Source: Fibrobacter succinogenes
Lineage (GTDB): Bacteria > Fibrobacterota > Fibrobacteria > Fibrobacterales > Fibrobacteraceae
Direction of reading: 5' to 3'
DNA: 35,584 nt
Assembly (NCBI GenBank): GCA_902762795.1
Contig: CACWPM010000029.1
Location: forward strand, 1 to 35,584
Below, in pieces: positions 8,374 to 27,169 of this stretch. The first letter of the stretch is position 1, and every line of letters begins with the position of its first letter. The notes under the pieces are model-generated. The model ran no database searches. It had not been told where the DNA came from and was given only the letters and a program-made list of their open reading frames with translations. The position numbers and the translations under genes are program-made.

Positions 8374-9936
8374 CTAGAATTTCGTATCCACCGGATTGAA
8401 GTTGAATTTCACGCCCGAGCGGATCCAGGCATCGGAGCCATCTTCTTTTTTGTCATGAGCGAGATTACGATAAAGGCGAAAACCACCGCCCACGTAGAAC
8501 TTGAACCAGTCCGTTACATCCCTTTGATAAAGGACATCAACGAGGAACTGTTTTTCAACGGTACCAGACAAAGTATTTTCCGATGCCAGAGCGACATTAT
8601 AGTCCGTATAAAGTTCCTTATCGCCTTGACGGAGCCAAGCTAGCGTAAGCGATGTAGAATGGACATTCCATTTCCAGTTGAAGTCAAACCACAAGTCAAG
8701 TGCGTCACCGCCCCTGCGGTAACCGATGGGATAATCGACAAAGTAAGCATCCGCATAATCGCTGTCACCCTGTTCGCGATAATTACTGCGATAGTTGCGA
8801 CGTCCCGTATATTTGAGGAGCGGAAGCCGGCTATTGTTTGCAGCTGGATCCGTTTTTACCACATCCAGGCGCCAAGAGAACGTGCCATACTTACGCGTTT
8901 CCAGTTCATGGTAGTAGCCCACCATATAGTTGATGATAGATCGATTCGTTCCCATTTTTTTGTCTTCGCCGACCGGACTTGCAATATCTTCCATATTAAT
9001 TTGACTATAAAACTTTGCGCCGTTCGAAGTCTTGTAGCCGAATTCTACAGATGTCGCAGCAGAAGTGTACCCAGTCGCATAGTTATCATGCCAATACATA
9101 AACGGATTGAACGAACGAAATTCAAGAGACTTGCCGCCAATAACACTTTGTTCTACAGCATAAATCCAAAACTTTTTCGTTTCGATACCAAATCTATGGA
9201 ACACTAAATTTTTCACGTTCTCTCTATAAACGCGATTGCGTTGGTTGCTCACCTGATTCCCGCGATCCGTACACTTTTGGGCGTAAGCTTCGGTCCCTTT
9301 TTCAGGGCAAACGGCGCCATGTTCATAATCAATCACATCGCCCATAAGCCATGCATTCAAGGAACTCAGCAAAAAATCATAGCGGAAAATTCCAATATTC
9401 AATTTCCAATGAATTCCATCGTGATAAGGTATGCCACCAAGGAAAATATCGTTCTTGGAAATTTTCAAACCTTCAGGGTCAAAACGGCCAAACTGCACAA
9501 AGCCCACGGAATTATCCCATTTGGCATAAGCGTTTATAGGCACGTTGATATCGAGTTCGCTCGGCTTGTAAGTAAAATTCGTCTTGAGTTCGCTATTGTA
9601 CCAAGCTTCCAAATCCTTGCGCAATGGCAAATCCATCAAGAAATGGAAATTCTTGTAACCCGCACGGAAAGAAAGCGTAAAGAAAGGTTCAATGCGCTCT
9701 TCGTAATTGCGGGCAGTTTCAAGCGGAATTCGAAGCCCCCGCCAGTTGCTACCGTAATTTTCAGCAGTATCTACGGCAAACAACGGATCAGTCGGACCTC
9801 CATTAAACCCGATATTAAAGTCCGTTCCGATCTGGAAATAGCCCACTTGTTTCGCAGACGTTTCTGACGGATTTTCAACGGATGCAAAAACCGCAGCCGC
9901 TCCCAGGCATGCAAAAAACAAAATACGAGATATCAT
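8374..9936 (-). CDS. Predicted outer-membrane beta-barrel protein, function unknown
   Basis: This 520-residue protein has a signal peptide (hydrophobic stretch to about residue 18, likely cleavage after VFA). The rest has alternating aromatic and polar segments typical of transmembrane beta-strands and ends in phenylalanine, as many outer-membrane barrels do. I see no enzyme motif. The size and the internal region around FNPFMYWHDN loosely recall Wzi-type or porin-like barrels, but this is only a guess. The gene follows ftsZ on the same strand, separated by about 800 bp of repeats, so it is probably transcribed independently. No clear Shine-Dalgarno sequence precedes the ATG. A terminator lies at 8270-8303. 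Confidence 0.75.
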   Translation of the reverse strand: MISRILFFACLGAAAVFASVENPSETSAKQVGYFQIGTDFNIGFNGGPTDPLFAVDTAENYGSNWRGLRIPLETARNYEERIEPFFTLSFRAGYKNFHFLMDLPLRKDLEAWYNSELKTNFTYKPSELDINVPINAYAKWDNSVGFVQFGRFDPEGLKISKNDIFLGGIPYHDGIHWKLNIGIFRYDFLLSSLNAWLMGDVIDYEHGAVCPEKGTEAYAQKCTDRGNQVSNQRNRVYRENVKNLVFHRFGIETKKFWIYAVEQSVIGGKSLEFRSFNPFMYWHDNYATGYTSAATSVEFGYKTSNGAKFYSQINMEDIASPVGEDKKMGTNRSIINYMVGYYHELETRKYGTFSWRLDVVKTDPAANNSRLPLLKYTGRRNYRSNYREQGDSDYADAYFVDYPIGYRRGGDALDLWFDFNWKWNVHSTSLTLAWLRQGDKELYTDYNVALASENTLSGTVEKQFLVDVLYQRDVTDWFKFYVGGGFRLYRNLAHDKKEDGSDAWIRSGVKFNFNPVDTKF

Positions 9937-10137
9937 AAGATAAATGTATTAAAAAGGCGATCCCGGCAACCCGGAAATTGTCCCAGGCAGGCTCTATAAG
10001 GCATGAGAAACAAGACAAAGAAACATCCGCTCAAGTCGGGCATGACAACTACAATGAGTCGAGCGGAACAAAGCACTCTTGTATTGCGCGCGAAAAACGA
10101 GAGCAGAGCGGTATCAACAGAGCCACGGTGCACATCC
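9937..10137. other. Gene-free spacer flanking the hairpin array
   Basis: No protein-coding feature is supported here. The segment holds GC-rich fragments (GATCCCGGCAACCCGG near 9960) that resemble pieces at the opposite end of the block (ACCCAGGCAGGG near 10580). These may be remnants of the same repeat family. Confidence 0.4.
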
Positions 10138-10225
10138 GTGAGCCATAAGCGGCACGGCGTAAGCGTGCCGTGTTGGCGAGAGCGGAGCGCCGACGGAGTT
10201 TTTCTATTAAATCAAAGCGAAGCGG
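10138..10225. repeat. 88-bp direct repeat, copy 1
   Basis: This begins GTGAGCCATAAGCGG, contains a hairpin at 10150-10170, then GGCGAGAGCGGAGCGCCG, and ends with an AT-rich TCTATTAAATCAAAGCG part. It matches 10476-10563 at 86 of 88 positions. Confidence 0.85.
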
Positions 10226-10508
10226 GTACTCTCTGTGAGCCGGAATGACCAAGCGCAAGCTGGTCATGAAGGCGAGAGCGGAGCGCCGACGGAGCTTTTC
10301 TATTAAATCAAAGCGAAGCGGGTACTCTGTGAGCCGGAATGACCAAGCGCAAGCTGGTCATGAAGGCGACCTTTGACCACTTAGTGCTTTAGCACTTATG
10401 TGGGCATGGCCACCTTTAGGTGGTAGCGAGGCGATGACGGAGTCTCGTTTTGCACAAGAGCCGAACGGACATGCCGTGAGCCATAAGCGGCACGGCGTAA
10501 GCGTGCCG
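10150..10508. repeat. Array of six short hairpins
   Basis: Hairpins lie at 10150-10170, 10246-10266, 10340-10360, 10377-10403, 10410-10423 and 10488-10508. Four have a GNRA tetraloop (GTAA or GCAA) with one bulged purine on the 5' side of the stem. The other two have a TTTA loop. Five of the six (all except 10377-10403) are followed within a few bases by GGCGA. The stems differ in sequence while the geometry is kept, which suggests selection for structure. Confidence 0.65.
10175..10369. repeat. 96-bp tandem repeat, two copies
   Basis: The unit starts GGCGAGAGCGGAGCG and ends with a hairpin of TGACCA and TGGTCA plus GAAGGCGA. Copy one starts at 10175 and copy two at 10271. Copy two has a 2-bp deletion in CTCT and one substitution. 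The 5' part of the unit is also part of the 88-bp repeat, so the region is a mosaic of modules. Confidence 0.85.
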
Positions 10509-10563
10509 TGTTGGCGAGAGCGGAGCGCCGACGGAGCTTTTCTATTAAATCAAAGCGGAGCGG
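10476..10563. repeat. 88-bp direct repeat, copy 2
   Basis: Second copy of the unit at 10138-10225, with two substitutions. It sits about 170 bp beyond the stop codon of ftsZ, on the 3' side of that gene. Confidence 0.85.
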
Positions 10564-10733
10564 ACACGATAAGGACCACCCAGGCAGGGAGACCCGGGTG
10601 ATCCCTTGTGTTGTGGTAGGTGCGCACTCACGCACCCGTGTGTGTGTGTTCTTTCTCGAAGGCGCACTCGAAAACATTCGAACGCACCAGGTCGAATTTT
10701 TGCATTGGAATGTACGCTAATCGTTATTCACGA
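10564..10733. other. Spacer between ftsZ stop and repeat array
   Basis: No gene is supported. It contains a run of alternating GTGTGTGTGT next to CACGCACCC (10630-10650) and a GC-rich ACCCAGGCAGGGAGACCCGG segment. I could not find a convincing intrinsic terminator for ftsZ here. Confidence 0.4.
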
Positions 10734-12398
10734 TTAGAACAAGTCAGAATTCATGCGCATGAAGGCCGGCAAGTCATAATCGACGTTGCTTTCCTTGAGA
10801 GCATCTTCAGGAGCCTTCTGGTTACGCATAAAGGCAGGCGTGCCATAATCAACGGCGCTCACCTGTTCGGTAGCCGAACGAGATTCCTGCTTACCGAAAG
10901 AGCTTGCATAGTTACCGCTAGAAAGAGGATCCGCTTCTGCAACACCCGGCATTTCTTCAGTTTCACGAAGAGTTGCCGTCGCAACAGCTTCTTCGGCATA
11001 ACCAGTCTTGGCATCAAAATTCGGAGAGGCAAAAGAAGATGCCGGAGCGAACATGGCGGCAGCTGCATTCACCGGAGCAGCCGGGCGGGCTGCACTGGCA
11101 TAAGAACTCTGCGGAACAGATGCGTAAGACGGAGCTGCAGAGACAACGCGCTGTGTAACAGCCGGAGCCATAACAGTCGGAGCGGCAGTCATAGCGGCGG
11201 TCGGCATTGCTGCCGTTGGCATAGCTGCCGTGGCACGACCTGCGAGAGCAACGAAGTTCGTCGTCGGACGCGGCGTTGCCGCCTGAACCGGAGCAGCTGC
11301 GGGTTGATAAGCCGGGGCCTGGAAACCTTGTGCCTGCTGGTATGCAGCGGTACCAACGCCAGCGTAATTCACGGCAGCAGCATTGTTCGTGCCACCGCAA
11401 CCCGTTGCGATAATGGTGATGCAAACCTTGTCACCAAGTTCCGGAAGAGTGATATCACCAACGATGATGTTCGGGTTGCCATCTTCGCCCACAGCGTCGT
11501 AAATATGTTCCATTGCTTCGTTATGTTCGAGCAAGGAGTAGTTTTCACCGTGAGAAACGTTGATGAGCACACCAGAAGCACCCTGGATATCGATATCTTC
11601 GAGGAGCGGAGAAGAAAGCGCTGCATCGGCAGCGGCAACACCGCGACCTTCGCCTTCAGCCGTACCCGTACCCATGAGAGCAGAACCACCCTTGAGCATG
11701 ACCTTGCGGATATCGGCAAAGTCAACATGCACAAGACCATGACGGAACATGATGCTGCAAATGCTCTGCACCGCATTGCCGAGAATTTCGTCAGCCATTT
11801 TGAAGGCTTCGTCAACAGTAGCACTCTTGTTCGTGTTCTGGATGAGGTTCAAGAGCTTCTTGTTTTCGATGACGATAATCGTATCGGCAGCTTCGCGAAG
11901 AGCGCGGACACCGCTCTGGGCCAAGGAATTACGGACATTACCTTCGAAACGGAACGGCTTTGTCACGACAGCAACCGTAAGGATTCCAAGTTCACGAGCA
12001 ACAGTAGCGACAATCGGAGCAGCACCCGTTCCGGTACCACCGCCCATGCCCGCCGTCACAAACACGAGATCGGCGCCCACCATGGCTCTCTTCAGATCAT
12101 CGATATTTTCTTCGACAGCCTTGCGACCCATTTCCGGATCCATGCCTGCACCGAGATTTCTCGTGCTCTTTTCGCCGATGAGAATCTTGTGGTCAGCGAG
12201 GCTTTGGTCGAGCGCCATGGAATCGGTATTGATAGCGTAGTATTCTACACCTTCAATATTCATCTGTTTCATGCGGTTCACTGTGTTGCCGCCGGCACCG
12301 CCGACACCGAACACCTTCACCTTAGCGTTTCTGGATGGGGATTCATCTCCTGTAATGCGAGATGTCGCCTCGAAGTTGATATTTGCAAAGTCACTCAT
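10734..12398 (-). CDS. ftsZ: Cell division protein FtsZ
   Basis: This tubulin-like GTPase polymerises into the division ring. The 554-residue protein has the nucleotide-binding GVGGAGGNTVNRM at about 31-43 and the tubulin signature GGGTGTG at 119-125. The conserved core ends near residue 345. The linker that follows is long (about 165 residues) and rich in Ala, Pro and Thr, with an AAMPT repeat. The tail holds two versions of the C-terminal peptide that normally binds FtsA and other partners: VDYGTPAFMRNQ at 516-527 and VDYDLPAFMRMN at 539-550. Most FtsZ proteins have only one. The start ATG follows AGGGAG with good spacing. The gene is last in the dcw cluster, 33 bp after ftsA. Confidence 0.97.
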   Translation of the reverse strand: MSDFANINFEATSRITGDESPSRNAKVKVFGVGGAGGNTVNRMKQMNIEGVEYYAINTDSMALDQSLADHKILIGEKSTRNLGAGMDPEMGRKAVEENIDDLKRAMVGADLVFVTAGMGGGTGTGAAPIVATVARELGILTVAVVTKPFRFEGNVRNSLAQSGVRALREAADTIIVIENKKLLNLIQNTNKSATVDEAFKMADEILGNAVQSICSIMFRHGLVHVDFADIRKVMLKGGSALMGTGTAEGEGRGVAAADAALSSPLLEDIDIQGASGVLINVSHGENYSLLEHNEAMEHIYDAVGEDGNPNIIVGDITLPELGDKVCITIIATGCGGTNNAAAVNYAGVGTAAYQQAQGFQAPAYQPAAAPVQAATPRPTTNFVALAGRATAAMPTAAMPTAAMTAAPTVMAPAVTQRVVSAAPSYASVPQSSYASAARPAAPVNAAAAMFAPASSFASPNFDAKTGYAEEAVATATLRETEEMPGVAEADPLSSGNYASSFGKQESRSATEQVSAVDYGTPAFMRNQKAPEDALKESNVDYDLPAFMRMNSDLF

Positions 12399-27098: not shown

Positions 27099-27169
27099 GT
27101 CGGCGGGAGTCGAACCCACGACCCGTTGCTTAGAAGGCAACTGCTCTATCCAACTGAGCTACTCGAACA
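27099..27169 (-). pseudogene. tRNA-Arg(TCT)-like remnant
   Basis: The 64 bp at 27099-27162 are identical to 27586-27649 within the intact tRNA-Arg gene. They include the D arm, the anticodon arm with TCT, and the T arm. Both strands of the acceptor stem diverge from the intact gene (5' GTTCGAG, 3' CGACAAA) and do not pair properly. It should not give a functional tRNA. Confidence 0.7.

Follow-up and report, generated by a model that had tools for sequence, protein, structure and literature searches.

An array of two-hairpin units behind ftsZ

The window analyzed here, a stretch of 35,584 nucleotides from Fibrobacter succinogenes, carries at 10134-10566 an array of four two-hairpin units of ~93 bp and one unrelated 55-bp module, module C, located 3' of ftsZ and of the ftsZ-DE RNA (Table 1). 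On the minus strand the order is ftsZ, ftsZ-DE, a gap of 2 nt, units 1, 2 (with module C), 3 and 4, and then an open reading frame of 520 aa. Three models were used for the matches, R1 for the hairpin HP1, R2 for module C and R3 for the whole unit; unit 2, which is interrupted, gave no reported match to either R1 or R3. Folding of 10130-10640, a stretch that includes ftsZ-DE, yielded z = -4.25 and -4.32 on the two strands, placing the hairpins of the array beyond chance. The ftsZ-DE RNA was matched in 77 of 80 genomes of the genus (72 above the cut-off), at a single place per genome in 76 of the 77, and it is the only Rfam match within 9937-10733, even at E<=5. A GT-rich run (GTGTGTGT, plus strand) separates ftsZ-DE from ftsZ here and in most of the loci read. 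Elsewhere, the window encodes a Fib_succ_major protein (Pfam) and contains, at 27102-27162 on the minus strand, a partial tRNA match (Rfam, 47.3 bits) where ARAGORN reports none.

Table 1. Coordinates of the features at the ftsZ locus.
Feature	Coordinates	Strand	Evidence
ftsZ, gene upstream of the array	10734..12398	-	Pfam Tubulin 5.9e-47, FtsZ_C 1.2e-23
ftsZ-DE RNA (RF02985), between ftsZ and the array	10569..10637	-	Rfam 93.7 bits, gathering 72.2
Unit 1 (ftsZ sense: HP2, then HP1)	10472..10566; HP1 10473-10523	-	R3 76.8 bits; R1 46.2 bits
Unit 2, linker split by module C	10325..10471; HP2 ~10428-10471, HP1 ~10325-10368	-	Direct reading; 10325-10369 is an exact copy of 10231-10275
Module C, 55-bp double TTTA hairpin nested in unit 2	10369..10423	+	R2 87 bits; seed row, match by construction
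Unit 3	10231..10324; HP1 10232-10281	-	R3 53.7 bits (seed row of R3); R1 25.8 bits
Unit 4	10134..10228; HP1 10135-10185	-	R3 74.3 bits; R1 48.2 bits
520-aa ORF, downstream neighbor, same direction as ftsZ	8374..9936	-	ORF list; without Pfam match

A preliminary description of this array had counted six hairpins, four with a bulged purine and a GNRA loop and two with a TTTA loop, and direct reading recovers all six. The GNRA hairpins have a GTAA loop at 10150-10170 and 10488-10508 and a GCAA loop at 10246-10266 and 10340-10360, while both TTTA hairpins lie within 10369-10423. The GNRA stems do vary, as had been stated, but these four hairpins represent two stems only, each present twice. The long repeat was recovered by a repeat search (10136-10225 against 10474-10563, 98% over 90 nt), which also detected an exact 45-bp repeat with a spacing of 94 bp. 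As for the reported 96-bp tandem repeat, a copy does lie at a 96-bp spacing from the first (73% over 90 nt, with a near-identical second half), but Tandem Repeats Finder reports no array here. The word GGCGA, seen by eye a few bases after five of the six hairpins as described, is mostly the 3' side of the HP1 outer stem (GCC/GGC) and is variable elsewhere in the aligned copies.

Two elements of the early picture have to be abandoned. The bulge and GNRA loop do not define the geometry: 14 of 24 aligned copies are bulge-free by eye, with loops such as ATTA, ATCA and CTTA. Nor do the six hairpins form one family, as they split into HP1 of the unit (four copies) and module C (two hairpins). The neighboring ftsZ-DE RNA and the second, covarying hairpin of each unit had both been missed. 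The defining features of the unit are its pair of covarying hairpins and the linkers CCG, CTCTC and CTCAC that enclose them, and the bulged GNRA hairpin is one variant.

Copies and range of the two families

Read in the sense of the gene, family 1 has the form GA-CCG-HP2-CTCTCG-HP1-CTCAC, often with a stop codon just ahead, and mostly measures 87-88 nt from CCG to CTCAC, the whole unit being ~93 bp. A blastn search of the array against its own genome returned 35 places at E<=10 and 20 at E<1e-5, the array itself counted; some of these relatives match the TTTA hairpins only, others the unit only. In the same genome, the whole-unit model finds 39 places (E<=0.01) and the HP1 model 43 (E<=0.1). 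The exact word GGCGAGAGCGGAGCGCC, put forward earlier as a search string, occurs three times in the genome, all within the array, but relatives of the array lie at the many other places found by blastn. Among 25 pattern-picked units of this genome, the closest resemblance to a unit of another locus is 73-86%, and there is thus no sign of a recent burst.

Both families extend across the genus. With up to 75 (HP1) and 71 (module C) candidates scored per genome, each model matches at least 78 of 80 Fibrobacter genomes as a lower bound, module C including G060, where the HP1 model gives no match. The HP1 model matches 6 of 87 other genomes of the phylum and 3 of 40 genera; the matches outside the genus are in five genomes of g6, a sister genus, and one of g11 (G139, G140, G142-G144, G151). 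An exact pattern for the commonest HP1 retrieved 58 stretches from the named collection, all 58 titled Fibrobacter or Fibrobacterales. Carriage by phages, plasmids or viruses was considered and dropped, the collections of such sequences that were searched containing no match to the units. An Rfam scan of 12 loci returned ftsZ-DE and one tRNA only, so the repeats fall in no known Rfam family.

Module C either stands alone or interrupts a unit, between HP1 and HP2. In G012, G052 and G060, ten or more copies in each genome have the same score, and 20 copies from G012 and G060 (L240-L259) share an identical 55-bp core with varying flanks. At these 20 loci, module C forms part of a longer, composite repeat, which also contains additional inverted repeats (AATCACGCACTTCGTGCG...) and in which the module is flanked by, for example, GAGACTAGAGAATA.

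Arrays of units are mostly head-to-tail, with exceptions in L099, L101 and L105, where inverted HP1 pairs lie ~120 bp apart. A further palindromic repeat of ~70-130 bp is inserted inside HP1 hairpins in L186, L188 and L006, and thus at least three small repeat families nest in one another. A second dispersed palindrome, TGTCATTCCCGC...GCGGGAATCTCC or variants of it, follows mdh or units in many species (e.g., L168, L170, L175-L177, L183, L185).

Covariation of the stems

In 11 seed copies of HP1, double-sided changes are found in 10 of 13 pairs, as opposed to 4.8 after shuffling; these pair statistics lean towards structure, since the seed (A2, 11 rows) was taken from ungapped, bulge-free copies. 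Whole units were compared in an alignment (A4) of 73 of 75 non-redundant units of 84-90 nt, chosen by their linkers and not by pairing, so that linker conservation in A4 is partly by construction. Over 17 pairs, 96.7% of the cells in these 73 units are paired, compared with 73.0% when shuffled and 25.7-44.6% when slid. Double-changed cells number 274 against 84.0, and double-sided changes affect 14 of the 17 pairs against 11.1 in shuffled alignments, a pair count that leans towards structure because RNAalifold predicted the structure on the same alignment. Shuffle tests of this kind overstate significance where, as here, the sequences are related and thus not independent.

The outer stem of HP2, which covaries across ~30 nt, was scored in 114 units whose start was chosen by length alone (the shortest match from CCG mis-registers units with an inner CCG, e.g., L027). 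Positions 1, 4, 5 and 6 form Watson-Crick pairs in 102-107 of the 114 units, whereas re-dealt partners give means of 48-66. Positions 2-3 oppose TC to TC in 87 units; of the other 27, 11 are Watson-Crick at both positions, 8 at one and 8 at neither. The linkers GTGAG and GAGAG are present in 91 and 85 of 99 HP1 matches, respectively, the model having been trained on them. For module C, 12 copies, with three rows out of register, show 95.5% pairing versus 88.6% shuffled and 16 double-changed cells versus 5.1. A three-way junction closed by CCG/CGG was also considered and is unsupported: the CCG side of this closing stem is fixed by the search pattern, and the right side varies, with pairing in 76/114 and 87/114 at the two outer positions.

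The stems covary beyond both shuffled and slid controls, as in a covarying structured element. The proposal of a structured extragenic element family with a kept shape and variable stems is thus borne out by copies that are genus-wide and compensated; a lack of other copies and uncompensated stems, either of which had been named as evidence against it, were looked for and neither was the case. Overall, the first interpretation is partly supported.

The indications as to which strand folds diverge. Tandem G.A, GNRA loops and closing C.A pairs favor the strand opposite the gene. Wobbles inside the stems lean to the gene-sense strand, with 20 G-U versus 11 A-C in the 73-unit alignment and 7 versus 5 in HP1. 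Folding energies of the two strands differ no more than in shuffled sequence.

Placement at gene ends

Among 51 distinct sites, which include the same gene from several species, a gene stop lies within 25 nt of the CCG end in 23 and within 5 nt in 21, as opposed to 3 of 51 at the CTCAC end; open frames of at least 100 codons were considered, the CTCAC end was scored on the other strand, and the loci had been fetched by model or by blastn. A cruder rule for the unit start gives 23/50 versus 3/50. When frame and gene are ignored, 66 of 114 units have a stop word whose end is no more than 4 nt from CCG, compared with a mean of 35.8 in shuffled flanks. At ftsZ, HP1 matches occur in 35 of 70 loci examined, drawn from the 77 genomes with ftsZ-DE, and 61 of 61 matches are on the strand opposite ftsZ-DE, which means that all units at this site have the ftsZ sense. 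Our data show placement next to stop codons, with the units oriented like the upstream gene.

A Pfam scan of 20 unit-adjacent genes gave matches for 18, many of them to housekeeping families: lactate/malate dehydrogenase, phosphotransacetylase, an alanyl-type tRNA synthetase fragment, class I W/Y tRNA synthetase, EF-G, EF-P, SHMT and SAICAR synthetase. The gene names mdh, pta and alaS are assigned from these matches. The pta loci (L197-L226, the best 30 matches among 76 genomes) illustrate how a unit meets a coding sequence. Eight of the 30 genes abut a unit, one of which is a remnant, and all eight have Asn as their last residue and the stop at the junction. In the remaining 22 genes no unit abuts, though three have one a few nt beyond, and the protein ends in Gly or, once, in Val. 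The unit junction therefore rewrites the end of phosphotransacetylase. Three other loci, L030, L112 and L119, end alike with the stop inside the unit; L112, the sole one scanned, encodes an alanyl-type tRNA synthetase.

Occupied and empty sites at mdh

Of the mdh loci, the best 30 matches among 67 genomes, 19 are occupied and 11 empty, in different species; G079, scored as empty, keeps a remnant. On the mdh tree, occupancy changes at least 9 times, 4 of them forced by starred branches, and with a shuffled mean of 9.2 there is no clustering. Precise empty and occupied counterparts are L191 versus L178/L179 and L181 versus L193, closely similar in the sequence around the site and with ACGTAA flanking it. 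The mdh units adjoin a copy of the unit's own terminal GCTCAC, and the mdh end, GCTCACACGTAA, mimics the unit end; a loss through recombination between short direct repeats is therefore no less possible than a gain. What these comparisons do show is that related species repeatedly gained or lost units at a single site.

The mdh loci suggested a target-site duplication; as a general rule it was dropped after 102 flank pairs, of which 12 share at least 6 nt versus 3.8 when re-paired, three being the ACGTAA mdh loci and the other nine junctions with a further unit. A terminator-like hairpin follows the mdh stop in 11/11 empty loci and lies beyond the last unit in 15/19 occupied ones. As to the remaining occupied loci, none was found in L171 and L172, and L188 and L193, for which the scan had placed the unit end wrongly, were set aside, a hairpin being readable beyond the unit in L193.

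Discussion

Fibrobacter is a plant-fiber degrader of the rumen, according to the available part of PMC6851124. No description of these repeats was found in the open PubMed Central literature, including PMC2864571, a library that leaves most subscription journals outside, and the accessible text of the REP papers PMC3733652 and PMC12306157 does not name the genus.

REPs and BIMEs are the closest parallel. In the accessible sections of PMC3733652, they are short, extragenic, multi-copy hairpins that form arrays near ORF 3' ends, and GTAG REPs often supply the stop codon of flanking ORFs, lying <20 bp from the ORF 3' ends. Our units are likewise extragenic, sit at ORF 3' ends and may supply the stop codon. 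The stop-proximal REPs of E. coli share with the units a hairpin within 15 nt of the stop, and for REPs <16 nt from the stop, the portion of PMC12306157 at hand reports lowered translation and slowed termination. The Fibrobacter unit differs, however, in being ~93 bp long with two hairpins, and the REP tags are infrequent in it (GTAG 5/114, CGTC 5/114, GGAG 17/114). BIMEs alternate in orientation, as far as the consulted part of PMC2817692 goes, unlike the mostly head-to-tail arrays of Fibrobacter. The RAYT signature was also not found: Y1_Tnp is present in 27 of 80 genomes, its rank correlation with unit number is 0.03 (p = 0.80), 42 of the 80 genomes have at least 10 HP1 matches yet no Y1_Tnp, and an HP1 match occurs in 1 of 10 Y1_Tnp loci (L067). 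A Y1_Tnp/RAYT mobilizer was rejected on this lack of correlation.

Like MITEs and small mobile repeats such as enterobacterial RU elements, to the extent that the available accounts describe these, the units are non-coding and non-autonomous, and their sites are occupied or empty between relatives. Terminal inverted repeats of the MITE kind are nevertheless absent beyond CCG/CGG, for which 83 of 162 flank-distinct units have GG as the two partner bases, and a target-site duplication does not appear to be general among the units. Integron attC sites are recognized by shape, have variable stems, form arrays and carry the boxes RYYYAAC ... GTTRRRY. The units share the shape with variable stems and the arrays; both boxes together occur in 0/114 units, and no cassette genes were seen in the arrays read. 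The ftsZ-DE RNA (RF02985) is also structured, 3' of ftsZ and found in the same genus, but it belongs to another family and occupies one place per genome, as described above.

A host-beneficial 3'-UTR RNA is one alternative, in which selection on the preceding genes maintains the folded unit, for instance through a protein whose binding stabilizes or times the mRNA, copying being secondary. The covarying stems, the many housekeeping genes that the units follow and the uniform sense at ftsZ are all consistent with such a role. A gene-specific regulator should nevertheless be conserved for each gene, and the scattered presence per site (mdh 19/30, with its nine changes against 9.2 shuffled; ftsZ 35/70; pta 11/30) counts against this explanation, which we regard as unlikely.

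Alternatively, the units could be recombination elements recognized by shape as single-stranded DNA, in the manner of IS200/REP hairpins or attC: a recombinase would bind the folded strand, circles would insert beside units, and arrays would grow. Sequence-free stems with a conserved shape, the arrays and the mdh units beside a copy of the terminal GCTCAC fit this proposal. On the complementary strand, the TC against TC of HP2 becomes tandem G.A, the loops are GNRA, and the C.A closing pairs (25/114 and 18/114) would be G.T. Against it stand the missing attC R-boxes, the strand folding energies, the wobbles, which do not favor the complementary strand (5 versus 7 in HP1, and the gene-sense excess in the 73 units), and the failure of Y1_Tnp to track copy number. 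This alternative is doubtful. A bolder version would have a genus-specific mobile family read by shape, with a folded two-hairpin single strand inserted in gene sense at gene ends and beside units by a recombinase other than RAYT or a standard integron integrase, rewriting last codons and stops and building species-varying arrays. We consider it improbable; if true, it would join attC and REP/IS200 as another kind of DNA mobility that reads structure.

The units might also be inert debris, that is, old palindromes whose arms stay matched because template switching during replication corrects them, with neither selection nor a function involved. Copies have diverged, and wobbles in HP1 are few (12 versus 531 Watson-Crick when pairs with Watson-Crick neighbors are counted), the pattern expected from arm-to-arm copying. 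The covariation of the HP2 outer stem across ~30 nt, linkers that look constant (with a model trained on them) and the polar placement at stop codons argue against debris and make it very unlikely. Intrinsic termination of the upstream genes would account for stable hairpins after stop codons and for the 16/114 units with at least 4 T in the last 18 nt right after the HP1 stem in gene sense (10 with five), which could terminate weakly, but it is hardly tenable for the family, as 98/114 units have no internal T run, a T run follows within 12 nt of the unit in 2/114, and the terminator-like hairpins at mdh are present in all empty loci and beyond the units in most occupied ones.

We propose that, in this array, two families of small, non-coding Fibrobacter repeats, dispersed and REP-like, have probably piled up locally, and family 1 is best read as a REP-like small mobile repeat without RAYT. 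The units would spread as non-autonomous elements mobilized in trans, a putative or lost enzyme recognizing the folded strand and moving them, and they may persist because the gene end is a harmless landing place. Placed between stop codon and terminator, the units would join the 3' end of the mRNA. A hairpin near the terminating ribosome may then slow termination and shield the 3' end, as published for stop-proximal REPs; that the units act in this way is a tentative prediction drawn from the analogy.

The repeats of family 1 constitute a real, genus-wide and structurally constrained family with REP-like habits, for which the REP machinery was not found, and REP-like behavior that does not track a REP transposase bears on how REP-like repeats spread. 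Lastly, close relatives in which a given gene either has or lacks a structured repeat at its stop codon provide a natural experiment, in which effects on translation termination and on mRNA ends are directly testable.
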